A stretch of DNA of 64,000 nt. It comes from Parvibaculum sp. GTDB taxonomy: Bacteria > Pseudomonadota > Alphaproteobacteria > Parvibaculales > Parvibaculaceae. Positions 4,386-36,775 of this stretch are shown in pieces. A program made the translations under genes and the position numbers. How positions within the stretch are numbered: the stretch's first letter is position 1; each line of letters starts with the position of its first letter. The stretch spans positions 620,001 to 684,000 of the forward strand of contig JAUSMV010000030.1 in assembly GCA_030645235.1 (NCBI GenBank), read 5' to 3'. The notes under the pieces are model-generated. The model saw nothing but the letters and a program-made list of their open reading frames with translations. It was not told the origin of the DNA and did no database searches.

Positions 4386-6407
4386 TCAATCTAATAGATA
4401 TTCATAGCGCTTTAGAAAACGAGCACTGATACGGCTTCCAACAAAACCATTATTTGCCAATGCAATGTCGTTGAAACGCTCAATGCGAGACTTATCGTCG
4501 TCACTCAAAATAAACTTACCCCTAACTGTTTCAAATACCTCAACCGTGGCATCAAGCAAATCTTCAGGATCGTTTTCAACGACTTCCAAATTTGCTTTGG
4601 CATAATCTTTAGTGAACTGTGACCAACCGGCGATTGACGAAAACATTTCGCGGAAAGTCAGCAAGCGCCCTGTTGACTTTTCCCGTACAAGTTTTGGTAC
4701 ATAAACATCATCAAGATACCAATTCGGAATAGCAAGAGGCGACCAGTTCGTCAGCGCGCATGGCTTCCCGAACATCGCAGGAACAACGCTGAATCCGGAA
4801 TTGGTTCCAAGAAAAAATTCGCATGTCGCGCAGAACATGACGTCGAAATCCGGGCTTCGGAATTCGCTGGTTGCGTAGTCAATCACTCGCTCGTGGGGCG
4901 CATATGGAGGCATATGCGAATCGCCCAAGCGCACGACCCAACCACCCTGAGCGACAATCCAGTTAATCGCTTCTCTGTAAGTTTCGATTTCAGCATTACG
5001 TGTACCTGGATGCGCCTCATGCCATTTTTGATGAAACCCCGGTGTCCTGACATGCACTCCGACAAACCAAGCGTCACGCGGCAATCCAAAGATACTTTCC
5101 ATTGAGGCGCGAAAATGCGCAGTCTCAGCATTTGTCATGCTAAACAGCGGACCATTCGATCCCGCCTTCCAGGCTCGCTCAACTTCCGCTCCGTGCGGCG
5201 CAAACCATTTGACGACACCATCTGCAGAAGGACCGTACCAAAAATCATCCGTCGTCGCGATCCTCACCTCCGTTGCGGCGCTCTTATCTCCCCCAGTCTC
5301 GCTATCATACAGTCCAACTTTCGTGACGACATCATCGATATGTCCCGGCAGATAATGGACTTGCTCAACATATTTTCCCAGATAGGGAAAGAGCGCCCGT
5401 CCCGGCAATGTTGCGCCGGTGCTCGTGGGGACTATGATGCGACTAACATCGCGCCAACCAAGCTTTGCCGCTTTGATATATGTGTCAATATATGCGGTAT
5501 GCCCGATCGCGATAAAAAAACTATCCCCCAAAAGCCGCGTTTTTGCACTTCCGATACCAAGTTTCGTGCGCGTCTTCTCCCTCGTCGTCGCAAGAATATT
5601 CCAATGACGTTCGGCATCCTGATAGCGACCGGCAAGAAAGTATGTGACCCCGACCTGCAGCCTTAGTAGTGCATCGTCCGGAACCTTCTTGATGCTTCTC
5701 AAATAAAATGGCAATGCGCTAGCGGCATCCCCACTGCTCAAAAATTTGTCACCCATATTGTTCAGGGTGATCGGGAGCAAAGCCATGTACAGCTTCTCCG
5801 GTATTTCAACCGAAGCTCCAGTTTTTTCATTCCAGTTTACAATTGCTTCAATAAGCCCCATAGCGAGATCTGGGACATCAGCCCCCTGAACACTTTCGAA
5901 ACCGTTCAAAATAGTTTCAATGCAATTAAGTGTTGGCCTGTCCTCAAGATAGTCTAGAAGCTTCCGGCCGCTGTGAAACCGTCCGTCATCTTTATCGACC
6001 GCAACAAATTGTGCAAAGGCCTTCATTGCATAATCAAGATCGCGCAGACGGAGAAAACTATTACCGAAAGTGAACATCAGGTCAGGTGCTGTCGCATACC
6101 GAGTCTCAGTTACTTCATTGAAACGTTTACGAAGCTCGTCGCCGTTTCGGCGTCTGGTCAACTTTTCGACCCGGCCCATTAATGCCAGAGCGGCAAAGCG
6201 GCCTCCCGTCTTCTTGGGATCAATCTGAGCAACAGTGTAAACGGTATCAATTTGTCCGCCTAACATCCGGCGTACACTTTGCTCAAATGAATAGAGATTC
6301 TGGTCAACGCGCGGAAGCCAATAGCGGACCAATGAACCGACTCTTGCACTTCGCTGCGACCCTAATGCCGAACGCAGCATCTCCTTCGCGAGAATTCTTG
6401 GTTCCAC
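4386..6407 (-). CDS. TPR-repeat protein with TIGR04372-like glycosyltransferase domain
   Basis: 673 residues starting at GTG 6407 (an ATG lies nine codons in). The first part is helical and includes TPR-like units (for example GNSFLRLRDLDYAMKAFAQ and DAASALPFYLRSIKKVPDD, about residues 110-270). The C-terminal half carries VGVHVRTPGFHQKWH, a YREAINWIVAQGGWVVRLGD block and FFLGTNSGFSVVPAMFGKP, the pattern I associate with TIGR04372-family glycosyltransferases, which are found in polysaccharide and glycoprotein loci. The acceptor is unknown. It is followed on the same strand by nothing and preceded (76 bp away) by the methyltransferase at 6483-7163, so the two may be co-transcribed. Confidence 0.75.
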   Translation of the reverse strand: MEPRILAKEMLRSALGSQRSARVGSLVRYWLPRVDQNLYSFEQSVRRMLGGQIDTVYTVAQIDPKKTGGRFAALALMGRVEKLTRRRNGDELRKRFNEVTETRYATAPDLMFTFGNSFLRLRDLDYAMKAFAQFVAVDKDDGRFHSGRKLLDYLEDRPTLNCIETILNGFESVQGADVPDLAMGLIEAIVNWNEKTGASVEIPEKLYMALLPITLNNMGDKFLSSGDAASALPFYLRSIKKVPDDALLRLQVGVTYFLAGRYQDAERHWNILATTREKTRTKLGIGSAKTRLLGDSFFIAIGHTAYIDTYIKAAKLGWRDVSRIIVPTSTGATLPGRALFPYLGKYVEQVHYLPGHIDDVVTKVGLYDSETGGDKSAATEVRIATTDDFWYGPSADGVVKWFAPHGAEVERAWKAGSNGPLFSMTNAETAHFRASMESIFGLPRDAWFVGVHVRTPGFHQKWHEAHPGTRNAEIETYREAINWIVAQGGWVVRLGDSHMPPYAPHERVIDYATSEFRSPDFDVMFCATCEFFLGTNSGFSVVPAMFGKPCALTNWSPLAIPNWYLDDVYVPKLVREKSTGRLLTFREMFSSIAGWSQFTKDYAKANLEVVENDPEDLLDATVEVFETVRGKFILSDDDKSRIERFNDIALANNGFVGSRISARFLKRYEYLLD

Positions 6408-7304: not shown

Positions 7305-8186
7305 ATGAGCAGTATACTGGTAGTGGGCGGATCTGGCTATTTGGGGCAAAGCTTAAGCCATATTCTGGGTCAGGATGGAGTTGCGACTTATCATAGCAAA
7401 CCAATCGCTGGGGGCTTTTTTTTTGATGCGTCAAAGGATCGATTAAGTGCACACCTGTCCAGCCTGCCCGCCGATCTGAGCCATGTCATTATTACCTATG
7501 GCGTTATTAATCCAGAACTTTGCGCAAGGGATCCCGAAAGAAGCGCCCACATCAATGTTAGTTCCGTTATCAGGGTTTTGAGCGATGCAATGGATGCCGA
7601 TCTCATCCCTATCTTTCTGTCGACCGACTATGTCTTCGATGGAACAAAAGGATCACGCAACGAAACTGAGTTACCCTGTCCGACAACACAATATGGCAGA
7701 CAGAAAGTTGCGGTCGAAAACTGGCTGCAGTCGACAGGTAAACATTGGATCATTGCACGCGCTTCGAAGCTCGTCAGCGGGGCCCTCAATACCCATAGTG
7801 TGCTCGGCCAGTGGGTCAATGACATTAAGGCTGGACAAGAAATGCGCTGTGCTAGCGATCAGATTTTCTCTCCCGCTTTGGTAGATGATGCGGCCGCCGC
7901 GATTTTGCATTTGGCAAATACCAACAGCGCCGGAATATTCCATGTTGCAGGCGAACAGGCTCTCAGCCGTTTTGCATTAGCCGAAACACTAGTGAACGCC
8001 GTCCATCGCGTTGCGCCCGACCTCAGCATCAATCTCAAGAGAGCAAAGCTCGCCGACTTTCCGTTTCTAGAAACACGTCCGCTCAACACGTCGCTTTCGA
8101 CAGAGAAGCTGCGCGCACTTTCCCCGCCACCTTTCCGCAGCATGGAAAGCCTTTGCGCGGAAATAGCGCGCATCAATTTTTCATGA
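7305..8186 (+). CDS. RmlD-like NAD(P)-dependent sugar-nucleotide reductase/epimerase
   Basis: 293 residues. The N-terminal SILVVGGSGYLGQSL is a GxxGxxG NAD(P) site. FLSTDYVFDG and, further on, the YGRQKVAVE (YxxxK) catalytic pair are typical of dTDP-4-dehydrorhamnose reductases and related SDRs. Length matches RmlD. No rmlABC genes are in the window, so reduction of dTDP-4-keto-rhamnose is not supported; a 4-keto reductase for another nucleotide sugar is as likely. Its stop codon overlaps the ATG of the next gene (ATGA), so the two are translationally coupled. Confidence 0.78.
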   Translation: MSSILVVGGSGYLGQSLSHILGQDGVATYHSKPIAGGFFFDASKDRLSAHLSSLPADLSHVIITYGVINPELCARDPERSAHINVSSVIRVLSDAMDADLIPIFLSTDYVFDGTKGSRNETELPCPTTQYGRQKVAVENWLQSTGKHWIIARASKLVSGALNTHSVLGQWVNDIKAGQEMRCASDQIFSPALVDDAAAAILHLANTNSAGIFHVAGEQALSRFALAETLVNAVHRVAPDLSINLKRAKLADFPFLETRPLNTSLSTEKLRALSPPPFRSMESLCAEIARINFS

Positions 8187-9232
8187 TGTCTGCCATGCAC
8201 AGCTTGCGTCTAAGCGCCATTATTCCAAACTACAATCACGCTCCGTTCATTGGCAGAGCGATCGAGGCTCTGCTCAAGCAAAGCACGCCACCTGATGAAA
8301 TTATTGTCGTTGATGACGCATCGACGGATAATAGCATAGAGGTCATCAACGCATTCATCTCCGCCAAGCGCGGGAACATCCGCCTCATTTCACTCGCAAC
8401 AAACGGCGGAGCTATTCCAGCGCTCAATCGTGGATTGAGAGAGGCACGCGGTGAATATATCTATTTTGGTTCCGCCGATGACGTCACGCTCCCGCACTTG
8501 TTTCACTCAATGCTTAATTTACTCGAAGCATATCCATCGGCCGCTCTCGCTTGTGGAGAGACCGCGCTGACCTACGCGAGCGGGAAGATTGTCGGACATC
8601 GCCCGATTGCTCGCCCATCACATACGCCACGATTTTTCTCGCCCGCAGATACAAGGCGCCTAATCGCACATTCCGACCATTGGATACTGACCGGCGCGAG
8701 CGTCTATCGTCGCATGATGATCTCAGAACTTGGTGGTTTCAACGAATCTCTCGAATCTTTTGCCGATGGCTTTGTCAGCAAGCAACTCGCGCTAGGTCAC
8801 GGCTTTTGCTTTGTACCAGACGTCGTCGCCATGTGGAGAATTGATCCAAAGGGATATTCCCGCACAACCGCAGCGGACCCAAACACGTCCAGAATTCTGA
8901 TCAGCAAACTCCGAGAAGTTATAAAAGCCGATCCCGCCTTCCCATTCGGTTATGCCGACCTCTATGAAAGGCGTATCCGCTTTGCTGTTTGCCGTCTGGC
9001 CATAGAAGCAACCCCTCGCAATTTCAATTTGTTGCAAATTTTAGGTCCATCACGCAAGTTCGACCGGTTGAGCCTCACAATTATAAAGCGAGTACGACCG
9101 AGCATTCTGCAACATTCCGTACTTCTCTTCTGGCTTACGTTACATTTTCGTCCGACTTCTCTTTTATCGGTGCTCACGACACATCTCAATCGCTTATGCA
9201 AAACACGAAACGCGATTTCCTCGAAGACCTGA
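8183..9232 (+). CDS. Family 2 glycosyltransferase
   Basis: 349 residues from the ATG at 8183, chosen because it forms an ATGA overlap with the upstream stop. The GT-A N-terminal domain is clear: RLSAIIPNYNHAPFIGRAIEAL, IIVVDDASTDNS, and then FGSADDVTLPHLF (about residues 5-100), where the DD pair would hold the metal and nucleotide sugar. Family knowledge: GT2 enzymes invert and transfer a sugar from a nucleotide donor to a glycan or lipid-linked acceptor at the cytoplasmic face. It precedes the HldE-like gene by 81 bp in the same direction. Confidence 0.88.
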   Translation: MMSAMHSLRLSAIIPNYNHAPFIGRAIEALLKQSTPPDEIIVVDDASTDNSIEVINAFISAKRGNIRLISLATNGGAIPALNRGLREARGEYIYFGSADDVTLPHLFHSMLNLLEAYPSAALACGETALTYASGKIVGHRPIARPSHTPRFFSPADTRRLIAHSDHWILTGASVYRRMMISELGGFNESLESFADGFVSKQLALGHGFCFVPDVVAMWRIDPKGYSRTTAADPNTSRILISKLREVIKADPAFPFGYADLYERRIRFAVCRLAIEATPRNFNLLQILGPSRKFDRLSLTIIKRVRPSILQHSVLLFWLTLHFRPTSLLSVLTTHLNRLCKTRNAISSKT

Positions 9233-9313: not shown

Positions 9314-10816
9314 ATGCAAAGCGCCAACGATCAAGGACATTCGATTGAGGCTATCAGGAAATTGGCGGGACCGGATCGCCGGATCGCTTTCGTGTCCGGC
9401 AATTTCAACGTCGTCCATCCCGGCCATCTTCGCATTCTCAAGTTTGCGAAGGAGAATGCCGACTTCCTTGTTGTCGGCGTGACGCCAGATTCAACCGCTG
9501 GTGTATCACTTCCTGCGACGCTGCGCCTTGAAGGTTTGTTGGCCATCTCGATCGTCGACTATACATTTCTTCTCAGCGAGCCCCCAGAAGAATTCATAGC
9601 ACGTCTCAAGCCTGAAGTTGTCGTGAAAGGCAAAGAGTACGAAGCGAGAGTAAATTCGGAACAATCAACTGTGGAAAGTTACAACGGCAAACTCCTTTTC
9701 AGCTCCGGCGAAATGCGATTTGCATCCTTCAACCTCCTGCAAAAGGAATATTACGAAGCGGATCTTTCAATGATTCGTAAGCCGCTCGACTTCCCCAAAC
9801 GACGCGGATTTCTTGTGCCCGATCTGAAGGCAATTTTGCCCAAATTAGCAGGCCTGCGCGTTCTGGTTATCGGCGATCTCATTGTGGATACCTATCTCAA
9901 TTGCGAACCGCTTGGCATGTCACAGGAAGATCCGACAATTGTAGTGACCCCGATTGATGAAAAATCATTCATCGGGGGGGCAGGCATTGTTGCTGCACAT
10001 GCCGCGGGCCTTGGAGGCAACGTTCATTTCATAACCGTCGCTGGCAAAGACGAATGGATGGAATTTGCAGAATCTGCTTTGCAAAACTCACATGTTAGTT
10101 TCGATATTCTTCTGGATTCGACACGCCCTACCACACACAAAAAACGCTTCCGCGCGAACGGGAAAACTTTATTGCGAGTCAATAATTTGCGTCAGCATGC
10201 CATCAATTCTGAACTCACCGAAGAGATGCTCAACGCTGTTCGCTTACGCTTGAAGCAGACAGACCTCATTTTGTTTTCTGATTTCAATTATGGCTGCCTG
10301 CCGCAACCGCTGGTCGATGCTGTCATTGATATGGCGCGAGAACACGAAATTATGATGGCTGCTGACAGCCAGGCGTCTTCCCAGATTTCAGACATATCAC
10401 GGTTTAAAGGTATGGAACTTGTGACCCCGACCGAACGTGAGGCACGGCTTGCTTTACGAGATCAGGAATCCGGGCTCGTCATACTCGGTGAGCGGCTTCA
10501 GCTTGCTGCGAGTGCACATAATGTCATCATCACACTTGGCTCCGAAGGCCTTCTCATTCACGGCAATCACGAGGGCAACTTCGTAACGGACCGCCTCCCA
10601 GCATTCAACTCATCGCCCAAGGACGTGGCCGGCGCCGGTGACAGTCTTTTCACCTGCACAGCGATGGCACGTTGCGTAGGCGTCGATATTTGGCAAAGCG
10701 TTTACCTTGGCGCACTTGCTGCCGGTTGTCAGGTATCGCGTGTCGGCAATACGCCTTTATCCCTGGAAGAATTGATTACTGAGATTGAAGACCCCGCCTC
10801 ATATTCAACAAACTAA
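9314..10816 (+). CDS. HldE-like bifunctional nucleotidyltransferase / PfkB sugar kinase, domains in swapped order
   Basis: 500 residues. The N-terminal domain (about residues 20-140) is a cytidylyltransferase-like fold with the HPGH signature at residues 35-38 (FVSGNFNVVHPGHLRIL) and VVKGKEYE. The rest (about residues 170-495) is a ribokinase/PfkB kinase with GGAGIVAAHAAGLGG near residue 220 and DVAGAGDSLF near residue 440, whose Asp is the catalytic base. E. coli HldE has the same two activities (heptose-7-P 1-kinase and heptose-1-P adenylyltransferase) but kinase first, nucleotidyltransferase second. The swap argues for an independent fusion. Substrate unknown; a heptose-like or other sugar phosphate is inferred. 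It lies 18 bp upstream of a sugar-1-P nucleotidyltransferase gene. Confidence 0.85.
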   Translation: MQSANDQGHSIEAIRKLAGPDRRIAFVSGNFNVVHPGHLRILKFAKENADFLVVGVTPDSTAGVSLPATLRLEGLLAISIVDYTFLLSEPPEEFIARLKPEVVVKGKEYEARVNSEQSTVESYNGKLLFSSGEMRFASFNLLQKEYYEADLSMIRKPLDFPKRRGFLVPDLKAILPKLAGLRVLVIGDLIVDTYLNCEPLGMSQEDPTIVVTPIDEKSFIGGAGIVAAHAAGLGGNVHFITVAGKDEWMEFAESALQNSHVSFDILLDSTRPTTHKKRFRANGKTLLRVNNLRQHAINSELTEEMLNAVRLRLKQTDLILFSDFNYGCLPQPLVDAVIDMAREHEIMMAADSQASSQISDISRFKGMELVTPTEREARLALRDQESGLVILGERLQLAASAHNVIITLGSEGLLIHGNHEGNFVTDRLPAFNSSPKDVAGAGDSLFTCTAMARCVGVDIWQSVYLGALAAGCQVSRVGNTPLSLEELITEIEDPASYSTN

Positions 10817-10834: not shown

Positions 10835-11542
10835 ATGCGCGCGCTACTGCTAGCAGCTGGAATGGGTACACGTCTTCGTCCTATCACCAACGCGATCCCA
10901 AAATGCCTTGTCCCTATCCACGGACGACCCTTACTGGACTATTGGCTTGAACTCCTATTTGACGACAACGCCATTGAAAGAATACTCGTCAACACTCACT
11001 ATCTTTCGAACAAAGTTGATAGCTTTGTCGCGAACTCGCGGCATCGCGACCGAATTGATCTCATCTACGAGCCGAGTCTTTTGGGGACAGGTGGAACGAT
11101 GGTTGCTAATCGTGAGTATTTTTCGGACAATGCACTCCTTGTGGCGCACGCGGATAATCTCACTGATTTTGACGTCAAAGCATTTATGCAGGCTCACGAA
11201 ATGCGCCCGCAAGGCTGCGTCATGACTATGCTTGCTTTCCGCACTGACGATCCCCGATCATGTGGCGTGCTAGAACTCGACAGACGAAATGTGCTCCAAG
11301 CCTTTTATGAGAAAGTTGCAGAACCACCGACCAATCTCGCCAATGCAGCTGTTTACATCGTGGAACCGGAGGTCATTGCCTTTATGGCTTCACTTGGGAA
11401 AGATTTTATTGACCTGAGCACAGAAGTCATTCCGCATTTTATTGGTCGCATTTTCGTGTTTGAGACAAGTGGCTACCATCGGGATATCGGAAGCGTTGAA
11501 AGCCTGGCACGCGCGAACCTTGAGTTCTCCCCGAAAAATTAA
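10835..11542 (+). CDS. Sugar-1-phosphate nucleotidyltransferase (HddC/RmlA-like)
   Basis: 235 residues. It opens with the pyrophosphorylase signature LLAAGMGTRLRPIT followed by PKCLVPIHGRPLL (residues 4-30), and has the DNLTD metal-binding stretch near residue 108. Length matches short NTP_transferase-family enzymes such as D-glycero-alpha-D-manno-heptose-1-phosphate guanylyltransferase (HddC) and MurNAc-1-P uridylyltransferase. The family makes an NDP-sugar from NTP and sugar-1-P. With the HldE-like kinase just upstream, a kinase-then-nucleotidyltransferase route is plausible. It converges with the gene ending at 11554. Confidence 0.82.
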   Translation: MRALLLAAGMGTRLRPITNAIPKCLVPIHGRPLLDYWLELLFDDNAIERILVNTHYLSNKVDSFVANSRHRDRIDLIYEPSLLGTGGTMVANREYFSDNALLVAHADNLTDFDVKAFMQAHEMRPQGCVMTMLAFRTDDPRSCGVLELDRRNVLQAFYEKVAEPPTNLANAAVYIVEPEVIAFMASLGKDFIDLSTEVIPHFIGRIFVFETSGYHRDIGSVESLARANLEFSPKN

Positions 11543-19323: not shown

Positions 19324-20370
19324 TTACATCCTAACCATGACACGGCCTGCGGTGTCACCACCACGCATTGCAGCGATGGCTTTGTTAATATCGTCGAGGC
19401 TAAAACGAGCTGTAACGAGGCGATCGAGATCGATAACACCTTGCGCGTATAGCGATTGGTAGCGTGGTATATCAATCTCGGGAACAGCTTCGCCGCCGTG
19501 CGAACCGCTAATGGATTTTCCGAAATGAAGTGGCAGAGAATAGATCGTTGTGTCACTGCCCTTCTTTGGCACACCTACCAGCACAACACGACCCTGCGGC
19601 TTTGTAATTTCATAACCCATCTGAATGATCGGTGGCTGACCTGTATTGTCGATAAAGACATCCAGACCTTGCACGCCTGTGATTTTCTCGATGGTGGCAC
19701 GCGCATCACTTGTTTTGGCGTTGATTAAATGGGTCGCGCCCAATGAGCGAGCGAGTTCGAGCTTGTTATCATAAAGATCAACAGCGATAATTGGATACGC
19801 CGTCGAGAGAGCGGCCGCCTGAATAATGTTGAGGCCGATGCCACCGGCACCAAAGACAACAACGGACTCGCCAATGTTAATTTTGGCATTGTTAACGACG
19901 ACGCCGAAGCCCGTGGTGACAGCGCAGCCAAACAAAGCAGCGACTTCCATGTTGCTATCAGCGGGAATTTTAGTCAGGCGATTTTCAGAAATGATGGCAT
20001 GCTGGCTGAAAGTCGTGACCCAACCGGCATTGACCTTTTTGCCATCCCACAAATAAGCAGGTGGCTGGGCCTCGATGCCCGGACCTTTACGCCAATGCAT
20101 GACGACTTTGTCATCGGGCTTCACCTGACGCACACCTGCACCGACAGCGAGCACTGTGCCAGACGCTTCATGCCCGAGAAGATGCGGCAGAAATCTATCC
20201 GGACCCTTCGCACCATCGATTTCGCCGATCTGCGAGCCGCAAATGCCGCTATGCTGGATTTGAACAAGCACTTGCCCAACATCGAGAGCGGGCGGCAAAT
20301 CTATCTCCGCAACGACAAGAGGTTGGCGCTGCTCAACAAGGATCGCGGCTTTTGTTTTTGTGGGAAGCAT
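19324..20370 (-). CDS. Zinc-type medium-chain alcohol/polyol dehydrogenase
   Basis: 348 residues from ATG 20370 (MLPTKTKAA). The catalytic-zinc ligands are visible: the Cys in SGICGSQIGE (near residue 46) and the GHE in LLGHEASGTV (near residue 70). The NAD(P) site is VVVFGAGGIGLNIIQAAALS (about residues 179-198). The usual four-cysteine structural-zinc lobe is missing; that region reads WRKGPGIEAQPPAYLWDGKK without cysteines. Family members oxidise alcohols or sugars or reduce the ketone. It is the last gene of the nine-gene operon and lies 10 bp after the methyltransferase, so it likely acts on the same sugar. Confidence 0.85.
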   Translation of the reverse strand: MLPTKTKAAILVEQRQPLVVAEIDLPPALDVGQVLVQIQHSGICGSQIGEIDGAKGPDRFLPHLLGHEASGTVLAVGAGVRQVKPDDKVVMHWRKGPGIEAQPPAYLWDGKKVNAGWVTTFSQHAIISENRLTKIPADSNMEVAALFGCAVTTGFGVVVNNAKINIGESVVVFGAGGIGLNIIQAAALSTAYPIIAVDLYDNKLELARSLGATHLINAKTSDARATIEKITGVQGLDVFIDNTGQPPIIQMGYEITKPQGRVVLVGVPKKGSDTTIYSLPLHFGKSISGSHGGEAVPEIDIPRYQSLYAQGVIDLDRLVTARFSLDDINKAIAAMRGGDTAGRVMVRM

Positions 20371-20380
20371 CAGAGCAGTC

Positions 20381-21049
20381 CTATTCGAAATAGATGAAGG
20401 AATGATCGCCGCTATACCCGGTCTGTTTGAACCACCACGCCCATTCATCCGGCGTGTTAAAGGCTTCGCATGTCACCTGCCAATAGAGGAGGTTCGCCTT
20501 TTCGGTTTCGTTCCGATAAGACTCAACGCAAATATATTTGTGTTTCTTGCCGACGCGCTCCATCTCGCGCAACGCTGGATCAAGGTCATAGTTATGCAGG
20601 TTGTGTAATGTGTTGATCGAGAAGACAAGATCAAACTCATTGTCGGCAAAAGGCAACCTATTGGCGTGGCCCACTTGCACACGGTCTTTTACGCCTTCAA
20701 CGACGTTTTCAATTGCGTATTCAGACACGTCAATGCCGCGTACTTCGACGCCCGACACGACTTGCGTAAAGTCATAAATCAGGAAGCCTTTGCCGCAACC
20801 GATGTCGAGGATCTTGTCACCGGGTTTAATACCGTAGTGGTCGGCCATAGCTTTGGCTACTTTTGCCCAGCGCCCGTCATAGCGGTAGCCACCATAATTG
20901 ACGCGACGATCGCCGTCCCAATAATCAAAACCCCATTTCTTCGCGAGGTCAGCCGCCTTGGCCTTCGGAAATTCGGGGTCGTTGACACGCGCGAGATAGT
21001 CTCGCGTCGTGGCCTTGTGGATGACGGATAGGAAATCGACGTAAGCCAT
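20381..21049 (-). CDS. Class I SAM-dependent methyltransferase (Methyltransf_11 type)
   Basis: 222 residues. Motif I KILDIGCGKGFLIYDF (about residues 79-94), motif II RGIDVSEYAIENV and motif IV NEFDLVFSINTLHNL (about residues 139-153) are all well kept. An N-terminal segment of about 60 residues (MAYVDFLSVIHKATTRDYLARV) precedes the fold. The substrate is unknown. The gene sits 9 bp after the APH-like kinase gene and 10 bp before the dehydrogenase gene, in the operon with the split transketolase. Confidence 0.85.
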   Translation of the reverse strand: MAYVDFLSVIHKATTRDYLARVNDPEFPKAKAADLAKKWGFDYWDGDRRVNYGGYRYDGRWAKVAKAMADHYGIKPGDKILDIGCGKGFLIYDFTQVVSGVEVRGIDVSEYAIENVVEGVKDRVQVGHANRLPFADNEFDLVFSINTLHNLHNYDLDPALREMERVGKKHKYICVESYRNETEKANLLYWQVTCEAFNTPDEWAWWFKQTGYSGDHSFIYFE

Positions 21050-21058
21050 TAAAAATCC

Positions 21059-22081
21059 TCAGTGCTTCAGTGCGGTCAACGCAACTCTGACCTTATCAAG
21101 TTGCATCCGTTTGCGCAGAGACTTTTCAGCCTCCGGATTGGCAAAGCGACGCCGCTTTGCATCATCGGGGAGAAAATCGTTCAGCATGATGCAAGCCCAT
21201 TTCAGTTTTTGAGCCGGCAACAGGATACGGGCGCGACGCTTCAGACCCTCCGCGTCGTCACAAAAAAACATTGTACGCTCAAGGAAGCGCTCGAAATGAT
21301 CGGCCGACACAGGCACCTGCGGTTGGCAAAAGAAGTCCGCCGCCATCTTGGCCGGATCGTCCAGGCCGGCATACTCAAAATCGATAAAAGTGACGCCGCC
21401 GTCTGGGCGCAACAATGCATTGTGAAAGCCGAAATCGGAGGGGGAGACGCAACGTTGAACGGAAGGTAAAACCTGATCGGGTTCAAGTTGGCATATAGCG
21501 AGTTCGGCCTTAATCACCCTTTTGGTTGAGGTCCATACCTTTTCGATCTCCGCCACATAGGATCTGGCTTCCTTACCCGCCTCGTCGTCGATTTCAATCG
21601 CAGCAAGACGTGCGACGCGGCGGTCGATGAGTGAACAATGATCGGCTATACTGAAACAGGCTTCGGAGGCGACGGGCATTTCTTTCGCATATTCAGCGCG
21701 GTCAGCGCCGTTGAGCGCGACAAAAAAATCTGCCGCCATGTCAACATGGCGAGCATTCAGCTCCTGCGTTGAGAGTTTTCGTCCCTCGATAAACTCGTAA
21801 AGACCGATACCGTTCTCTTCGTCCTTGGCAATGGGTTTGGGTACATTCGAAATACCCTGCCCTATTGCATAAACGATAAGTGACCATTCAGCGCCGAGGC
21901 GATCGCGTGGGTCCTGTCCGCTGCGATAATATTTTTTGGCGAGGACACGTTTGTTGCGCAGATGAATTTCATAGACGAGATTATTGCCACCCTCGCGGCA
22001 GGGACAAGCAGAAAATTCGCTAAGGTCCTCGCCTTGAAGAGTGAGAAGCATTTTGACCTGTGTCAAAAATTCATTAGACAC
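21059..22081 (-). CDS. APH-like phosphotransferase (aminoglycoside/choline kinase fold)
   Basis: 340 residues from GTG 22081, overlapping the upstream HAD-like stop by 8 bp. The N-lobe has RVLAKKYY with a candidate ATP-binding Lys. The catalytic loop is SDFGFHNALL (about residues 214-223; D..N in place of HGDxxxxN) and the metal-binding stretch is VTFIDFEYAGLDDPAKMAADFF (about residues 229-250). The family phosphorylates small-molecule hydroxyls, including sugars, choline and homoserine. In this operon it is a candidate sugar kinase acting with the HAD phosphatase-like protein and the isomerase. The catalytic loop lacks the usual His-Gly before Asp, which is worth noting. Confidence 0.75.
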   Translation of the reverse strand: MSNEFLTQVKMLLTLQGEDLSEFSACPCREGGNNLVYEIHLRNKRVLAKKYYRSGQDPRDRLGAEWSLIVYAIGQGISNVPKPIAKDEENGIGLYEFIEGRKLSTQELNARHVDMAADFFVALNGADRAEYAKEMPVASEACFSIADHCSLIDRRVARLAAIEIDDEAGKEARSYVAEIEKVWTSTKRVIKAELAICQLEPDQVLPSVQRCVSPSDFGFHNALLRPDGGVTFIDFEYAGLDDPAKMAADFFCQPQVPVSADHFERFLERTMFFCDDAEGLKRRARILLPAQKLKWACIMLNDFLPDDAKRRRFANPEAEKSLRKRMQLDKVRVALTALKH

Positions 22082-22685
22082 GTGTCACCCCAAGATGGCG
22101 CGCAATGCTACCCCAAGACGTCTGGCGCAACAGGCTTGTATGATCCGTATGAATATCGTCGGGATCAAAGAGGATAGGGCTTACGCCCGAGGGGAAATAG
22201 GAAGCCAGTAAAATTTCCGGCAGATCATCGATGAAAAAATCGCATTGAAGCACGCCGACACGGACGAGTTTCTCTTCTTTGGTGAGTTCAAAATAGGCGC
22301 GGTCGGAGGGGATCAAAGCGCCCTGTTCGTCACGCAACGATGCCTCAACCCAAGTGCGGGCCGCCTCATGCAAATCATATTGCACACCGCGGAAAGGATA
22401 GCGCGTCTTATGACTGACGATAAAAAGCTCATGACCCTGTACCTGTGCCGCACGCATAAAGTCAAAGGCACCGGGATAGGCAATGGCTTCCGCCATGCGT
22501 CCGCCATAGACCGTACCCTGCATTTCGGTCCAGTCATCTTCGCGGCCAATTTTTCGCAGGTGATCGCGCACAGCAACTTTGGTTTGCACTATGTTTGGAG
22601 GAACAAGCCCCGCCTCATGCGCCACTTTGAAAAATAGCGCGTCGTAGCTCACGATTGTGTTATCGAAATCTATTCCGATGCGCAT
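22074..22685 (-). CDS. HAD-superfamily hydrolase-like protein
   Basis: 203 residues from ATG 22685. The start MRIGIDFDNTIVSYDALF holds the HAD motif I (DxDNT/T) with both aspartates. VSHKTRYPF (about residue 93) would be motif II/III territory, and CDFFIDDLPEILLA (about residues 162-175) matches the DD of motif IV. The length suits a small HAD phosphatase. A sugar-phosphate phosphatase (GmhB-like in role, not in sequence) is a guess from the operon. It starts 7 bp after the transketolase C-terminal subunit gene ends. Confidence 0.75.
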   Translation of the reverse strand: MRIGIDFDNTIVSYDALFFKVAHEAGLVPPNIVQTKVAVRDHLRKIGREDDWTEMQGTVYGGRMAEAIAYPGAFDFMRAAQVQGHELFIVSHKTRYPFRGVQYDLHEAARTWVEASLRDEQGALIPSDRAYFELTKEEKLVRVGVLQCDFFIDDLPEILLASYFPSGVSPILFDPDDIHTDHTSLLRQTSWGSIARHLGVTRV

Positions 22686-22692
22686 CGGGCAC

Positions 22693-23616
22693 TCATGCCA
22701 AAGCCGCTTTGATCTTTTGTGCCATGTGTTCAGCGCCAAGGCCCAATTGTTCGCGGGCATATTCCTGTTCGCCTGACAAACGGAAGAATGCGTCCGGTGT
22801 ACCAAAGCGCAGGAACTTCGAGATCTTCACCTCGCCATCAATCAGCCATTCCGACACGGCAGCGCCTAAACCACCAATGAGGCTGTGTTCTTCGATTGTG
22901 GCGACGAGTTTGAACCGCGAGAAGGCTTCGGCAAGGCAAGCTTCGTCGAGCGGCTTTACAGTGTGAAAACTCACGACGCGGGCCGTGATGCCCTGATCCC
23001 TCAACAGTTTCGCGGTATGCATGACTTCGGGCAGCATGTTGCCGGTGGAGAGCAGGCAAACATCCACGCCCTCTTCCACCGTGATGGCCTTGCCGATGGC
23101 GAAGTCTGCAGGGATACCGGCATGGACAACGGGTTCGCCCTTTTTACCCATGCGAATATAGACCGGGTTATCCTGTTTCAGCGCCGCGCGCATAGCGGCG
23201 CGCACTTCCCATGCGTCGGCGGGGCAGACAACTTTCATGTTAGGCAGCGAGCGCAAAATAGCGATGTCCTCGCAAGAGTGATGCGTAGGCCCCAGACCCG
23301 CATAGGACATACCCGCGCCAACAGCGACGATGATAACGGGGGCTTCCTGATAGCAGACATCAACGCGGATTTGCTCAAAGCAGCGCGAGGTAATGAAAGG
23401 CGTGATCGTGTAGGCGATGGGGCGCAAGCCTGACATGGCCATGCCCGCTGCAACGCCCATCATGTTTTGCTCGGCGACACCGCAGTTAAGAAAACGTGAT
23501 TCATGGGCAGCGCGGAACTTATCGAACAGACGGTTGCCAATGTCGCCCGACAGCATGACGACACGCGGATCTTCGTTGCCAAGCTTGGTGAGTTCGTCTG
23601 CGAATGCGTTTCTCAT
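22693..23616 (-). CDS. Transketolase-like C-terminal subunit
   Basis: 307 residues, covering the pyrimidine-binding and C-terminal domains of a split transketolase. MRNAFADELTKLGNEDPRVVMLSGDIG opens it, and FLNCGVAEQNMMGVAAGMAMSG (about residues 42-63) carries the conserved Glu that activates the ThDP pyrimidine ring. HHSCEDIAILRSLPNMKVV follows. The ATG overlaps the stop of the N-terminal subunit gene by 4 bp (ATGA), so the halves are co-translated. Split transketolases of this type sit in many biosynthetic clusters and move C2 ketol units. Its place beside an isomerase and kinases suggests making a longer sugar rather than serving the pentose pathway. Confidence 0.9.
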   Translation of the reverse strand: MRNAFADELTKLGNEDPRVVMLSGDIGNRLFDKFRAAHESRFLNCGVAEQNMMGVAAGMAMSGLRPIAYTITPFITSRCFEQIRVDVCYQEAPVIIVAVGAGMSYAGLGPTHHSCEDIAILRSLPNMKVVCPADAWEVRAAMRAALKQDNPVYIRMGKKGEPVVHAGIPADFAIGKAITVEEGVDVCLLSTGNMLPEVMHTAKLLRDQGITARVVSFHTVKPLDEACLAEAFSRFKLVATIEEHSLIGGLGAAVSEWLIDGEVKISKFLRFGTPDAFFRLSGEQEYAREQLGLGAEHMAQKIKAALA

Positions 23617-24455
23617 GCGAGGCCAAGCTCCTTGTGCGAAATCACAACTTCCTCGGCGGTCGGTGCGCGGTAATGCCAGTTATTGTCGTCTTCCATGAAG
23701 GAGACGCCTTTGCCTTTCACAGTGTGCGCGACAATCGCCACAGGCTTACCGCTGCCGTTCGGTACATTGGCCATCAGAGCGGCGACGGCACCGATGTCAT
23801 GACCGTCAACTTCAACCGCATCCCAGCCAAAGGCTTCCCATTTTTCACGCAAAGGCGCTAGCGCCAGCGTTTCATTAGAACGCGCTGTCGCCTGCCATTT
23901 GTTGTAGTCGATGATGACACAGAGATTTTCAAGATTCTGAGCGGCGGCAAACATCGCCGCTTCCCAAACAGAACCTTCGTTGCATTCGCCGTCGGACATC
24001 AGCGCATAGACACGGTATTTCTGACCTTTGATGCGGCCCGCAAGGGCCATTCCGTTGCCGATCGGCAGACCATGACCGAGTGAACCTGTCGCTGCCTCAA
24101 CACCGGGCAATGAATTTGCAGGCGGATGCTCTGCGAGTTTTCCGCCATCCTTCGTGTAGGTTTCGAGCAGGCTTTCAGGATAGAAGCTGCGAAAAGCGAG
24201 TGCAGAATAAATTGTAGTGGCCGCATGTCCTTTCGAAAGAATGAAGCGGTCGCGGAGTTCGTCCTTGGGTTGCTTCGGATCAATATGCAGCACATGCCAA
24301 TAAGCGGCGGCAACAATGTCACAGCAAGAAAGCGACGAGCCGAGATGCGCGCTACCCGCAGCATGAGACATTTCGATCACTTTGCCGCGCAGACGGCGCG
24401 CAGCATCTTCAAGCGATTTGACGTCTAGATTTGCCTTCGCGGCCTGAACATTCAT
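23613..24455 (-). CDS. Transketolase-like N-terminal (ThDP-binding) subunit
   Basis: 280 residues from ATG 24455 (MNVQAAKANL). The ThDP-binding domain is complete: HLGSSLSCCDIVAAAYW, LSKGHAATTIYSALA, HPPANSLPGVEAATGSLGHG, and the metal-diphosphate site MSDGECNEGSVWEAAMFAA ending in DYNKWQ (about residues 140-190). The usual GDG reads SDG here. Together with the coupled C-terminal half it makes a full transketolase. It lies 32 bp after the dehydratase-like gene in the same operon. Confidence 0.9.
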   Translation of the reverse strand: MNVQAAKANLDVKSLEDAARRLRGKVIEMSHAAGSAHLGSSLSCCDIVAAAYWHVLHIDPKQPKDELRDRFILSKGHAATTIYSALAFRSFYPESLLETYTKDGGKLAEHPPANSLPGVEAATGSLGHGLPIGNGMALAGRIKGQKYRVYALMSDGECNEGSVWEAAMFAAAQNLENLCVIIDYNKWQATARSNETLALAPLREKWEAFGWDAVEVDGHDIGAVAALMANVPNGSGKPVAIVAHTVKGKGVSFMEDDNNWHYRAPTAEEVVISHKELGLA

Positions 24456-24487
24456 CGGAACGGTCTCCTTGCGCTGATCCGACAGGA

Positions 24488-25486
24488 TCAAGGCTTGTGC
24501 ATGTAGTCCGCAGGCAGGCGCTGCAACTGGTCGATATATTTTTCGGCCCAGAGGATTGTATCCTCCAAACCTTGTTCGAGCGAAATCTTATCACTCCAGC
24601 CAAGCTCTGTGCGCAGCTTATCGCTGTTGAGCATATAAGCTGTGTCTTTGCCGGGACGTTCATCCACAATTTCGACGGCTTGTGCCATGTCTTTGCCGAG
24701 GCGCTTGACAATCATCTCGACCAACTCGCAGATCGAAATAAGACGCGGCGTCGAGATGTGGTAAGTGTCACCCAATGTGCCTTTGAGGGCGATGGCAAGC
24801 GTTGCTGCCGACACGTCGCGCATATCAATAAATGAGCGAATCGAATGGCCGCCGCCGTGAAGCTGGAGCTTGCGACCCGTCATCGCAAACAAGATCGTGC
24901 GCGGCACGATGCGGTAAAGCTGCTGACCGGGACCAAAGACATTGGCCGCACGTGTCGAAACAGCCGGAAAGCCATGTTGCTTCACATAAGTCTTAAGACT
25001 CATGTCGCCCGCAGCGCGCGAGACGGCATAGGGCGTTGTCGGATTTAACGGCATATCCTCTTTGATCCAGCCATCTGTGCTGCCATAGACCTCCGGCGTC
25101 GTCACATGGACATAGCGGTCGAGAAAATCGAGATGGCGCAGGCGTTCATGCAAGCGCACGGTTGAAACGACATTGGTCATCATCCAATGGTCCGGATATT
25201 TCCAGCTTTCGCCGACCATGCTTTGCGCGGCGAAATTGACCACGTGGCTTGGACGTACGCGGCGCAGGATTTCATCGAGCTTGTCGAGGTCGTTGTTGAT
25301 ATCAACGGTCTCGAAGGTCACTGTGCCAGCGCGCTTCTGCCATTTGTAAGGCAGAAAGGCATCATGCGGTTCGGGCGAGCGGCTTGTCGCCACAACATCA
25401 TAACCCTGCCCCGCTAGATAGTCGGCAAAGGTCGCGCCGGAAAATGAATTCGAGCCGAGAATAAGAAATTTCTCGTTGGATGACAT
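24488..25486 (-). CDS. NAD-dependent sugar-nucleotide dehydratase/epimerase (extended SDR)
   Basis: 332 residues. The NAD site FLILGSNSFSGATFADYLAG (about residues 7-26) is a slightly altered GxxGxxG. VVNFAAQSMVGESW, the VTTPEVYGS block and PYAVSRAAGD (YxxxR in place of the usual YxxxK; about residues 152-156) follow the fold of dTDP-glucose and GDP-mannose 4,6-dehydratases. The TPEVYG stretch resembles the T-D/E-E triad region of 4,6-dehydratases. The Lys-to-Arg change at the catalytic Lys position is odd and might alter activity. The substrate is unknown; a 4-keto-6-deoxy route or 4-epimerisation is possible. Confidence 0.8.
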   Translation of the reverse strand: MSSNEKFLILGSNSFSGATFADYLAGQGYDVVATSRSPEPHDAFLPYKWQKRAGTVTFETVDINNDLDKLDEILRRVRPSHVVNFAAQSMVGESWKYPDHWMMTNVVSTVRLHERLRHLDFLDRYVHVTTPEVYGSTDGWIKEDMPLNPTTPYAVSRAAGDMSLKTYVKQHGFPAVSTRAANVFGPGQQLYRIVPRTILFAMTGRKLQLHGGGHSIRSFIDMRDVSAATLAIALKGTLGDTYHISTPRLISICELVEMIVKRLGKDMAQAVEIVDERPGKDTAYMLNSDKLRTELGWSDKISLEQGLEDTILWAEKYIDQLQRLPADYMHKP

Positions 25487-25503: not shown

Positions 25504-26112
25504 TCAATTAGAAACCTGATCGCGCTGCGTATAGAGCCACTGCATGATCATGTGCCCGACAATCAACTGCATGTCTTCTGAAATTTGCATGTCGTCAATA
25601 TTGAAGTGAATAGGAACATCGACCATGCCCAAAGCCTTGCCGCCCGTGTAGCCGAGAATGCCGTAGGATTTCATACCGATGCGCTTGGCTTCGTCGAGCG
25701 CCACCAAAATATTCGGTGAGTTGCCGCTGCCCGACAGCACAATCAGAACGTCGTCGGGGCGCGCCTGCACCGCGAGTTGCAACGAGAAAATCTTGTCATA
25801 GCCCTCATCATTCGCAAGGCAAGTCAGCACGGCGGAATTGGCGGGTAGCGCATGGATGCGAAGGCCTGAACCCGGCTTTTTGGAAATGCCGTAAACAAAA
25901 TCATTAGCAAGGTGGATGGCATTGCCTGCGCTACCGCCATTGCCTGCGATAAAAATCTGACGGCCCGTCTTCCAACAATCGAGGAACTCTTCGGCAAGCG
26001 CCGAAACAGGTGACCAGTCAGTGTCCGCCATCAACGCAGAGAGACGCACCGAATAGTCGGCGAACAAGGCGTTTGATTGGGAGAGCTCTGAGGAACCGCG
26101 CAGATTTTGCAT
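25504..26112 (-). CDS. SIS-domain phosphosugar isomerase, GmhA-like (sedoheptulose-7-phosphate isomerase family)
   Basis: 202 residues from ATG 26112 (MQNLRGS). One SIS domain: IFIAGNGGSAGNAIHLANDF (about residues 45-64), LSGSGNSPNILVALDEA (about residues 117-133) and the C-terminal EDMQLIVGHMIMQWL with the Glu and His used by GmhA. Size and motif spacing fit GmhA, which turns sedoheptulose 7-phosphate into D-glycero-manno-heptose 7-phosphate. The homologue LmbN in lincomycin synthesis acts on an octulose phosphate, so chain length cannot be fixed here. It lies between the epimerase (2 bp) and the dehydratase-like gene (17 bp). Confidence 0.85.
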   Translation of the reverse strand: MQNLRGSSELSQSNALFADYSVRLSALMADTDWSPVSALAEEFLDCWKTGRQIFIAGNGGSAGNAIHLANDFVYGISKKPGSGLRIHALPANSAVLTCLANDEGYDKIFSLQLAVQARPDDVLIVLSGSGNSPNILVALDEAKRIGMKSYGILGYTGGKALGMVDVPIHFNIDDMQISEDMQLIVGHMIMQWLYTQRDQVSN

Positions 26113-26114
26113 AC

Positions 26115-27050
26115 TCACAATACCTCTTTCTGCATCCACTTCAGATTGTGGAAGCGTTCCTCATCCTTCAGAGCATTCTGACGATAGAGGCCAACAATTT
26201 CACTCACGGCGTCTTCAACTGTCTTTTTGGGACGGAAGCCTGTCGCCAGCAGCTTGTCGGAATTCACGCGGTAAGACCGCGGATCGTTCGACGGCGTTAC
26301 GATGATTTCGGCAGGCACGTGTTTTGCGACAAGCTCGGCAATTTGCAGGATCGAGATATTCTCAAAACCTGCATTATAGACGCCGGTGTGCTCGGGATGA
26401 TCGATCAGAAAGAGATAGAGATCCGTGATGTCATCGATGTGAATATTGGGTCGTGTCTGATCGCCGCCAAAGACCGTGATGCGCCCATTGGTTAGCGCCT
26501 GCATAGTCAGCATGTTCACTGACACATCGAGGCGCATGCGCGGTGAAAATCCGCAAACAGTTGCCGGGCGCACGATTTGCACCACCATATCGTCTTTGTA
26601 GGAGAGCAAGATGCGCTCGCCGCACATTTTTGTTTTGTTGTATTCCGAGATCGGTAGCAGCTCGAGATCTTCGGTGACTTGTTCTTCGTCTTTGACACCG
26701 TAGACGCTGCCGGACGATGCATAGATGAAACGTTTAATACCCAGACGCTGCGCCTTGTCGGCAAGCTGCATAGTGGCAAGACAGGAGATTTCCCATGTGA
26801 GCTGCGGGTTGAGATCGCCGCACGGATCGTTTGCCACACTGGAAAGATGGATGATCGCGTCAACGTCGTCGAGATTGACCTCGTCAATGTTGCGGATGTC
26901 GCCCTGCACAACGGTCAGCGCCGGATGCGGCTGGAGGAAGTTTCCAAACCACATAATGTCAAAGGCCGTGACGCTGTGGCCCTTGGCCAATAGCTTCGGC
27001 ACAAGAACGCTCCCCTTATAGCCGCACGCACCCGTCACAAAAATCCGCAT
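26115..27050 (-). CDS. NAD-dependent epimerase/dehydratase, first gene of nine-gene operon
   Basis: 311 residues. MRIFVTGACGYKGSVLVPKLLA is the NAD-binding loop. IIHLSSVANDP, ASSGSVYG and the catalytic YNKTK (YxxxK, about residues 140-144) are classical extended-SDR features, and ITVFGGDQTRPNIHIDDITDLYL is the usual C-terminal substrate-domain stretch. This is close to GDP/UDP-sugar epimerase-like proteins of glycan clusters. It heads the operon that runs down to 19.3 kb, with gaps of 2-32 bp and several overlaps; the 196-bp gap upstream must carry the operon promoter. Confidence 0.85.
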   Translation of the reverse strand: MRIFVTGACGYKGSVLVPKLLAKGHSVTAFDIMWFGNFLQPHPALTVVQGDIRNIDEVNLDDVDAIIHLSSVANDPCGDLNPQLTWEISCLATMQLADKAQRLGIKRFIYASSGSVYGVKDEEQVTEDLELLPISEYNKTKMCGERILLSYKDDMVVQIVRPATVCGFSPRMRLDVSVNMLTMQALTNGRITVFGGDQTRPNIHIDDITDLYLFLIDHPEHTGVYNAGFENISILQIAELVAKHVPAEIIVTPSNDPRSYRVNSDKLLATGFRPKKTVEDAVSEIVGLYRQNALKDEERFHNLKWMQKEVL

Positions 27051-30593: not shown

Positions 30594-31999
30594 TAACTAA
30601 TGGCCTCCGAAGTAACGTTGTGAGAATCCATCATCTGAAGCTCGCGCATCGATGCGTTCGTTCCGGGAATTTCGGTCCCGCGGAGCGAATGGCCCGCGGT
30701 TTCAACGACGAACATCAGAGCGATCCCTCCGATCACACAGGCACCCATCATAAGGTAAGCCGGTATGAGCGCACTGCCGGTTGCCGCGATCATCCAATCG
30801 TTAACGGCGGGCGCTGTGCCTCCGAAAAGTGAGGTCGAGATGTTATAGGCGATAGCAAAGCCGGCAAGTCGCACGTGTGTCGGGAACATGGCCGGGAAGG
30901 TCGCGGAGATCGTTGCGAGTTGCGGCACATAAAGAAGTCCGAGTACCACAAAACCGATGATCGCGCCGGCGAAACCCGTGGCCATCAAATGGTAGAGAGG
31001 AATGGCGAGCACAAAGAGCCCAACGAGTGAGAACCACCAAAGCGGCTTACGTCCCACCTTGTCCGACAGATGCCCGGCAAAAGGTAGAAACAGCATCATG
31101 AACAACATGCCGATGATCGGCACAACGAGCGACTGATCCGTCGTCAGTCCAAGTTGCGTTGAAAAATAGGTAGGCATGAAGCTTAGTAGCGTGTAGTTGA
31201 CCACGTTGAGCGCGACGACGAGCCCCGCAAGAGCAAGCAGTGATCGCCGATAGTTGGACATGAGGGTCTTCAACTCCGCGCCGACTTCACGCTCCTGTCT
31301 ACCGGCTTGTTCAATTTCTTGAAATACCGGCGTGTCTTCGATCTTCGAACGCAAATAGATACCGACCAGGCCAAACGGGGCTGCAACAAGAAACGGCAGC
31401 CTCCAACCCCAGTCATGCATCACCTCCTCGCCCATCAAGACCAAAAAGCCAAGCATCAGTAACGCACCAAACGAGAACCCGGCAAGTGTACCGAATTCGA
31501 GAAAGCTGCCGAAGAATCCGCGCCTTTGGTCAGGTGCATATTCCGCCATAAACGTTGCAGCGCCGCCATACTCACCGCCCGTCGAGAAGCCCTGCACCAT
31601 GCGCAGCAGAACAAGCAGTAAAGGCGACCAAAACCCAACACTGTCATAAGACGGAATCAGACCTATACAGAAGGTCGAACCAGACATCATCAGAATGGTA
31701 AGCGAAAGCACCGATTTCCGACCGAACCTGTCGCCCAGCACTCCCCAGAAGAGGCCGCCGAAGGGACGTACCAGAAACGAGATGGCGAATGTCGCGAGAG
31801 CGAAGAACGTCGCTTGTTGCGCATTCCCCGGGAAGAGTGCACCGGCAATGTAAACGACACCATATGCATAAATACCGTAGTCAAACCACTCGGTCGCATT
31901 GCCAATGGCCGAGGCCGCGATGGCGCGCCTCATCACGCTGGGCGGCACAGCGCCTTCAGAGCCAGGAGTGCTACCGCCCGCCGGTCCCGCGACCAACAT
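30593..31999 (-). CDS. MHS-family MFS transporter (ProP-like), probable compatible-solute carrier
   Basis: 468 residues. AASAIGNATEWFDYGIYAY (about residues 28-46), RPFGGLFWGVLGDRFGRKSVL (about residues 77-97) and RMVQGFSTGGEYGGAATFMAEY (about residues 132-153) are the signatures of the metabolite:H+ symporter family, which includes ProP (proline/betaine/ectoine). Twelve spans can be counted. The long C-terminal coiled coil that ProP of E. coli uses for osmosensing is not seen. The ATG overlaps the ask stop (ATGA). Uptake of ectoine-type osmolytes is the best-supported role by family and context. Confidence 0.85.
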   Translation of the reverse strand: MLVAGPAGGSTPGSEGAVPPSVMRRAIAASAIGNATEWFDYGIYAYGVVYIAGALFPGNAQQATFFALATFAISFLVRPFGGLFWGVLGDRFGRKSVLSLTILMMSGSTFCIGLIPSYDSVGFWSPLLLVLLRMVQGFSTGGEYGGAATFMAEYAPDQRRGFFGSFLEFGTLAGFSFGALLMLGFLVLMGEEVMHDWGWRLPFLVAAPFGLVGIYLRSKIEDTPVFQEIEQAGRQEREVGAELKTLMSNYRRSLLALAGLVVALNVVNYTLLSFMPTYFSTQLGLTTDQSLVVPIIGMLFMMLFLPFAGHLSDKVGRKPLWWFSLVGLFVLAIPLYHLMATGFAGAIIGFVVLGLLYVPQLATISATFPAMFPTHVRLAGFAIAYNISTSLFGGTAPAVNDWMIAATGSALIPAYLMMGACVIGGIALMFVVETAGHSLRGTEIPGTNASMRELQMMDSHNVTSEAIS

Positions 32000-34352: not shown

Positions 34353-34375
34353 AAGTTCGAGCCTCTGGATCTTGA

Positions 34376-34789
34376 TTAACTGGCAAGCGCCTGCGCCACG
34401 GCCACGTCAGCTTCAACGGGATAGGCACCCGTCTCGTCATGAACTTCACGACCGGTGACCGGCGGATTAAATACGCAAGCAGTAACAATATCCGTGCGCG
34501 GCCGCACGATGTGTTCGTCATGGCTGTTCAGCGCATAGAGCGTGCCCGGTCGCAAATCGTGGACATGCCCCGTACCCAGATCCTCGATCGTTCCCTCGCC
34601 TGCCAGCACGAAGACCGCTTCCACATGGTTTTTGTAATGCATGTGCAGTTCCTTGCCTGCATACATTGTTGTGATGTGGAAGGAGAAGCCCATGCCTTCT
34701 TCCTTCAGGAGAAGGCGAGCGCTCTCCCATCCACCCGTCACAATGTTGCGGTCAGAACTGCGCGTGTCGTCAAGTTTGCGAATAAGCAT
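34376..34789 (-). CDS. ectC: Ectoine synthase EctC
   Basis: 137 residues from ATG 34789 ([16 protein letters not shown]); the frame continues upstream into ectB but without EctC resemblance. This is the usual EctC length. The cupin core is clear: [32 protein letters not shown] (quoted in part: [15 protein letters not shown]) with the metal-binding Glu, Tyr and His, and [14 protein letters not shown]. EctC closes N-gamma-acetyl-diaminobutyrate to ectoine. It starts 16 bp after the ectB stop, with GGAGAAAACC just ahead of the ATG as ribosome binding site. Confidence 0.96.
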
Positions 34790-34805
34790 ATGGTTTTCTC
34801 CTGGT

Positions 34806-36766: not shown

Positions 36767-36775
36767 ATTTATCAA
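36747..36775 (-). promoter_or_regulatory. Sigma70-like promoter of the ectoine operon
   Basis: On the minus strand TTGATA (36775-36770) and TATATA (36752-36747) are separated by exactly 17 bp. It faces ectA. The transcript would start near 36740, inside the 5' part of the longest ectA frame. Confidence 0.7.

Follow-up and report, generated by a model that had tools for sequence, protein, structure and literature searches.

A widespread HldE-like fusion with its halves swapped, a candidate anomeric kinase of a second NDP-heptose pathway for surface polysaccharides

The gene at positions 9314-10816 on the forward strand of the window (the whole 64,000-nucleotide stretch of DNA analysed here) encodes a 500-residue protein, here named FUS for short, in which a nucleotidyltransferase (NTase) domain is followed by a PfkB/HldA-type kinase domain. 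FUS belongs to a widespread family of reversed fusions, which are real relatives of HldE with the halves swapped. Judging from its sequence and its gene neighbourhood, FUS may be the kinase acting on C1, the anomeric position, in a second NDP-heptose pathway that is encoded by the cluster and serves surface polysaccharide, a reading to which we give a probability of about 0.55. Such a pathway would run apart from the one that supplies ADP-heptose to the lipopolysaccharide (LPS) core.

FUS is encoded by a single ATG-to-stop frame without an internal stop. Pfam analysis gave a CTP_transf_like match (PF01467) at residues 27-113 (36 bits; cut-off, 21) and a PfkB match (PF00294) at residues 182-480 (83.8 bits; cut-off, 25.8). 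Together with motifs and an AlphaFold model, these matches define FUS as a reversed HldE-like fusion of group A (see below), with the NTase domain at residues ~18-150 and the kinase domain at residues ~172-493. HPGH (residues 35-38), GGAG (221-224) and AGAGD (439-443) were found within the one frame where the original prediction had placed them, and KGKEYE lies at residues 105-110. The catalytic motifs are kept throughout group A (HxGH in 81/81 and GxGD in 81/81 sequences). The AlphaFold model, built with 48 relatives as input, had a mean pLDDT of 89, the confidence being low for the N-terminus and residues 132-138. Its closest solved fold was Burkholderia HldA (4e84; E 3.4e-27), followed by sulfofructose kinase and ribokinases at ~1e-18 and weaker, and HldA was also closest to the kinase domain by sequence.

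HldE of enterobacteria consists of a kinase followed by an NTase, and elsewhere the two activities reside in the separate proteins HldA and HldC. In a scan of contigs for relatives of FUS, 179 loci were obtained and the best 80 were kept, all of them full length. The search for other swapped fusions that the original prediction had proposed was thus successful: the NTase precedes the kinase in FUS and in all 80 relatives, none of which has the HldE-type order, and also in two more distant groups, B (about 30-36% identity to FUS) and C (about 25-32%). A frameshift or an assembly join does not explain the reversal, because 80 loci on contigs independent of one another share it, the finished chromosome of Herbaspirillum huttiense (L020) among them; nothing spoke in favour of such an artefact, which we regard as practically out of the question. 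Nor did FUS turn out to be the one-off independent fusion that had been supposed, since it belongs to a large family in which at least three groups can be told apart, and some reversed fusion was present in 28/299 sampled Pseudomonadota genomes (~9%).

The sources of the 80 loci retained from the 179 were Alpha-, Beta- and Gammaproteobacteria as well as metagenome-assembled genomes labelled as other phyla, labels that may be wrong; cultured members include Herbaspirillum, Rhodopseudomonas, Thalassospira and Ahrensia. For the window's class, 241 genomes were covered: group A members, the close relatives with an identity of 49% or more, occurred only in the window's genome and in G191, and G266 held a divergent relative, designated A2, with 32% identity. 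Carriage of FUS by phages was considered and set aside, as no relative was found on viral contigs in a scan that reaches close relatives only. We found no NCBIfam model specific for FUS. Our literature searches gave nothing on a reversed HldE or on a cytidyltransferase/PfkB enzyme of polysaccharide synthesis, and no characterised enzyme of the reversed-fusion family was found in the literature searched.

The closest known systems are HldE and HldA/HldC, which share the two domain families and the HxGH and GxGD motifs with FUS and are nearest to it by kinase sequence and fold. FUS differs from them in domain order, in its altered substrate motifs, in its polysaccharide-cluster setting and, within group A, in the loss of a lysine loop. 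Against the NCBIfam models for HldE, the kinase scored 198.8 bits (TIGR02198; cut-off, 345) and the NTase 59.9 bits (TIGR02199; cut-off, 181.5). In the kinase tree, the reversed fusions of groups A, B and C came together (98/91) opposite HldE/HldA (95/88), and the NTase tree gave the same separation from HldE/HldC with weak support (63/99), so that FUS lies outside the clade of HldE/HldA/HldC in both. The root of the kinase tree is unsure because the branch of the ribokinase outgroup is very long. The simplest reading is a single old reversed fusion that later divided into A, B and C; the separate domain trees favour one old split from HldE/HldA/HldC over the recent independent fusion of the original prediction.

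The window's genome also encodes an ordinary HldE (contig C55, 487 aa, kinase first), and ordinary HldE or HldA/HldC is usually retained in genomes with a reversed fusion. The NTase-first order, for which the status of a common form had been considered, is therefore widespread and yet not the usual form of HldE. An ordinary gmhA-gmhB pair lies side by side on contig C58, ~13 kb upstream of FUS and ~3 kb before the start of the window (G000:C58:615927-617137, equal to L171:9928-11138); the pair is near the FUS polysaccharide cluster, and its GmhB could serve the proposed pathway. That FUS is a stand-in for HldE, making ADP-heptose for the LPS core with the reversed order being neutral, would agree with its two preserved catalytic signatures and with HldE/HldA/HldC as its nearest families. 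We nevertheless consider this very improbable, as the ordinary HldE and gmhA-gmhB are already in the genome, FUS falls far under both HldE cut-offs, and it resides in a surface-polysaccharide cluster and is devoid of both the NTase lysine loop and the STT motif described next.

Alignment of the NTase domains revealed that the active-site lysine loop of HldC (KG..RP) is missing at FUS residues 55-71 (window 9476-9526, forward strand). An active-site role of the corresponding kind is documented for Lys69 of BpHldC (PMC7993394). The lysine column, as read from an alignment of short domains, was a gap in 23/23 group A sequences and K in 19/19 HldE/HldC, 10/10 group B and 9/9 group C sequences; some K was present in the wider loop region, at no fixed place, in 17/81 group A sequences. 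Other HldC motifs are also modified in group A: TNG is replaced by VSG, NSD is altered, and KGG has become KG[KRQ]E. The (F/L)xxGRSTT motif of STTR5-type NDP-heptose synthetases is replaced by FSSGExxFSS. The original prediction had taken KGKEYE as a sign of a shifted pocket. The pocket has indeed changed, and KGKEYE is a real, family-wide feature (KG-[KRQ]-E-[HYF]-E; K105 in 79/81 and E108 in 81/81 group A sequences), but as the key change it gives way to the larger deletion of the lysine loop. The mean identity of NTase and kinase was 0.54 and 0.57 in group A, where the NTase is less conserved, whereas the NTase is the more conserved domain in group B (0.69/0.63), group C (0.55/0.49) and HldE (0.58/0.44). 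These comparisons indicate that the NTase pocket of group A is changed, though the domain has not simply decayed, since HxGH is invariant.

The gene labelled NTP encodes a sugar-1-phosphate nucleotidyltransferase (PF00483) at 10835-11542 on the forward strand and starts 18 bases past the end of FUS. It was present in 78 of the 80 group A loci (the best 80 of 179) and lay directly downstream of FUS in 69 of the 76 with enough sequence, whereas a profile search of 18 group B/C loci found none. In the class sample of 241 genomes, NTP (E up to 1e-30) was confined to three genomes, those with FUS A/A2. Loop loss and NTP thus correlate, the loop being lost in group A only and NTP occurring in A/A2 only. 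The HddC structures 6jq8/5xhw ranked second and third among the solved-structure matches of NTP, but its score against the HddC model NF049965 (67.2 bits; NCBIfam cut-off, 300) makes it HddC-like rather than HddC. The absence of the lysine loop with NTP next door suggests that NTP probably took over, or shares, the nucleotidyl transfer step of the group A NTase. A new acceptor for this NTase, in place of a handover to NTP, is the less preferred possibility. It is also conceivable, though unlikely, that the group A NTase is fully active on one NDP-sugar and NTP makes another, the pair serving two sugars: the conserved HxGH, K105 and E108 and the average identity of 54% in the NTase domain are in line with such activity, but the lysine loop is deleted, and only in group A is the NTase under looser conservation than the kinase. 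Moreover, NTP is bound to FUS almost without exception, which fits one shared product better than two. We therefore prefer the handover to NTP.

The window contains a cassette, EPI-SIS-GMD-TKn-TKc-HAD-APH-MT222-ADH, at 27050-19324 on the strand opposite to FUS. All of its genes are on the reverse strand: EPI, a short-chain dehydrogenase/reductase (SDR; 26115-27050); SIS, of the GmhA-like sedoheptulose-7-phosphate isomerase family (25504-26139); GMD, an NDP-sugar 4,6-dehydratase-like SDR (24488-25486); TKn and TKc, the N- and C-terminal halves of a split transketolase (23613-24491 and 22693-23616); an HAD-like protein with a DFDNT motif (22074-22805); an APH-fold kinase (21059-22081); the methyltransferase MT222 (20381-21049); and the zinc alcohol dehydrogenase ADH (19324-20448). 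EPI had its best solved matches in 6vo6/6vo8 (E 2.5e-35; next, 6e-23), of which 6vo6, the nearest, is entitled a putative sugar-nucleotide epimerase/dehydratase; we take it to be Cj1427 of Campylobacter jejuni, a heptose 4-dehydrogenase. The closest match of SIS was GmhA. SIS scored 105.5 bits against the GmhA model TIGR00441 (cut-off, 209.45), a weak test because the genome's ordinary GmhA also fell under the cut-off (183.8). The HAD-like protein, a conserved neighbour of the APH kinase in both group A and group C, gave no match in Pfam, NCBIfam or solved structures. Upstream of FUS on the forward strand are an RmlD-like reductase (7305-8186), a possible member of the unit, and directly upstream a GT2 glycosyltransferase (8153-9232), which we count as setting rather than core. 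The reverse strand at 4386-6407 encodes a 673-residue protein that combines a TIGR04372 glycosyltransferase domain with TPR-like repeats, and related genes recur near FUS in other loci.

The cassette was largely or fully contiguous with FUS in L007, L017, L018, L058, L061, L079 and L082. Of the group A loci (the best 80 of 179), 23 carried EPI, SIS and GMD jointly, 22 of them contiguously, and SIS was within 8 kb of FUS in 25/80. Where a locus has a thiamine-diphosphate (ThDP) enzyme, about half the time this is an E1-type pair in place of the split transketolase. EPI was encoded elsewhere in 36 of 50 FUS genomes (61-94% identity), most of these 50 having been selected for the absence of EPI from the FUS flank. 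In the class sample, cassette-type EPI (E up to 1e-90) occurred in exactly three of 241 genomes, and FUS A/A2, EPI and NTP shared the identical set of three (EPI-FUS co-occurrence, Fisher p 4e-7, with the small number of three positives). Group C has the layout FUS-SIS-EPI-HAD-APH-TKn-TKc in L097 and L100, with similar layouts in L103, L166 and L167. The neighbours in group B are SIS, EPI and often TKn-TKc, together with a transaldolase in 8/10 loci and a UDP-glucose-dehydrogenase-like protein plus a Gfo/Idh protein in 10/10. At L091:2392-12700 and in other group B loci, for example, the reversed fusion is accompanied by a GmhA-like SIS, transaldolase and two SDRs, and cassettes of this type also contain the Gfo/Idh oxidoreductase, the UDP-glucose-dehydrogenase-like protein, a methyltransferase and the split transketolase. 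The presence of transaldolase, transketolase and a GmhA-like isomerase beside an HldE-like enzyme points to sedoheptulose-7-phosphate.

In C. jejuni, GDP-heptose for the capsule is made via GmhA/Cj1424, HddA/Cj1425, GmhB and HddC/Cj1423, followed by the 4-dehydrogenase Cj1427, with GmhB encoded outside the cluster (PMC10680097). The FUS clusters likewise hold a GmhA-like isomerase, a C1 kinase, an HddC-like NTase and a Cj1427-like dehydrogenase, so that each step has a counterpart, with the fusion in the kinase's place. Unlike HddA, however, the kinase of FUS is an HldA-type PfkB kinase behind an NTase domain, and the FUS clusters contain further genes, among them those for the split transketolase or for an E1-type ThDP enzyme. 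In the proposed pathway, for which we infer every reaction, substrate, anomer, nucleotide and product from what was observed (the domain order, kinship by sequence and by fold, linkage and co-occurrence of the genes, and the correlation of loop loss with NTP), SIS would isomerise sedoheptulose-7-phosphate, whose source may be the split transketolase or, in group B, transaldolase. The kinase domain of FUS would then phosphorylate C1, and GmhB or the HAD protein of the cassette may remove the distal phosphate. In groups B and C, the NTase of FUS itself would attach the nucleotide; in group A, where FUS has lost the lysine loop, this step would fall mainly to the HddC-like NTP. Finally, the NDP-sugar would be oxidised or dehydrated by the Cj1427-like EPI, often also with GMD, and might be modified further by the ThDP enzyme or a methyltransferase.

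Several observations speak against this pathway. HxGH is invariant in group A in spite of the supposedly weakened NTase, SIS is beyond 8 kb of FUS in many group A loci, and the cassette of the window is 8-17 kb from FUS on the other strand. HldA produces the beta-1-phosphate and HddC uses the alpha-1-phosphate; the FUS kinase and NTP would thus be mismatched unless one of the two departs from its model or the alpha anomer comes from APH. In groups A, B and C, other sequences stand in place of the HldA substrate motifs SPEAP, QQLIRLD and DPKG, so the substrate may be other than heptose-7-phosphate, and the original suggestion of another sugar or another nucleotide is plausible. In a stronger form, the kinase would act on another aldose phosphate (e.g., a C6 or C8 sugar from the cassette transketolase) and the NTase on a new acceptor, giving a non-heptose NDP-sugar. 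The strictly conserved SQEDPT, SDFNYGCLP and ADSQxSSQ in place of the HldA/HldC substrate motifs, and the ThDP enzyme as part of the cassette, lend this some weight, but SIS and EPI are closest to sedoheptulose and heptose enzymes and transaldolase occurs in group B, so we judge it rather unlikely and retain the NDP-heptose pathway.

A broader scheme is put forward tentatively, as a possibility short of even odds: mobile cassettes for NDP-heptoses or higher sugars may have spread across phyla, in which the ThDP enzyme (split transketolase or E1-type) would extend a 4-keto-heptose by further carbons, yielding a C-branched surface sugar, and the group A fusion, with an NTase no longer transferring nucleotides and an HddC-like replacement, would be caught mid-exchange. 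The two adjacent genes at 22693-24491 on the reverse strand constitute a split transketolase inside a surface-polysaccharide cluster; a review refers to split transketolases solely in Streptomyces, where they are suspected of branching sugars (PMC12247030). In Rhodopseudomonas loci, a TPP enzyme is beside or near FUS-NTP, as at L035:11199-13016 and related loci, where a three-domain enzyme of the acetolactate-synthase/YerE kind lies just downstream; a branched-sugar enzyme of R. palustris, RhopE, is assumed in a review. The bradyrhizose operon of photosynthetic Bradyrhizobium comprises eleven genes, including a dTDP-glucose 4,6-dehydratase-like gene needed for the unusual O-antigen sugar (PMC4743980); its likeness to the FUS cassette is by description only, the genes being unlisted in the text and the retrieved contigs including none named as Bradyrhizobium, and serves as a lead only. 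According to two commentaries, the NDP-heptose synthetases of Tang et al. 2024 occur in mono-, di- and tridomain forms (PMC11573728, PMC11461863). Their kinase/NTase didomain belongs to the same superfamily as FUS, and they carry (F/L)xxGxSTT as opposed to the FSSGExxFSS of group A; the commentaries mention neither a reversed order nor loss of the lysine loop, which the original article may cover.

A class of heptose-like surface sugars probably exists behind the FUS clusters. Enzymes that activate heptose are candidate drug targets, and the immune agonist ADP-heptose is their product. With a relative of different build widespread in surface-sugar clusters, annotations such as 'HldE' or 'PfkB kinase' conflate two pathways. 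The loss of the NTase lysine loop together with the gain of a separate nucleotidyltransferase would be a clean case of an enzyme taking over the step of a fused domain, and the conserved cassette offers an ordered set of about ten enzymes for reconstitution. Elsewhere in the window, also on the reverse strand, are a putative ectoine/hydroxyectoine-like cluster with its own aspartate kinase (31999-36775) and a 2860-residue protein (38162-46744) that resembles cyclic beta-glucan synthase by sequence.
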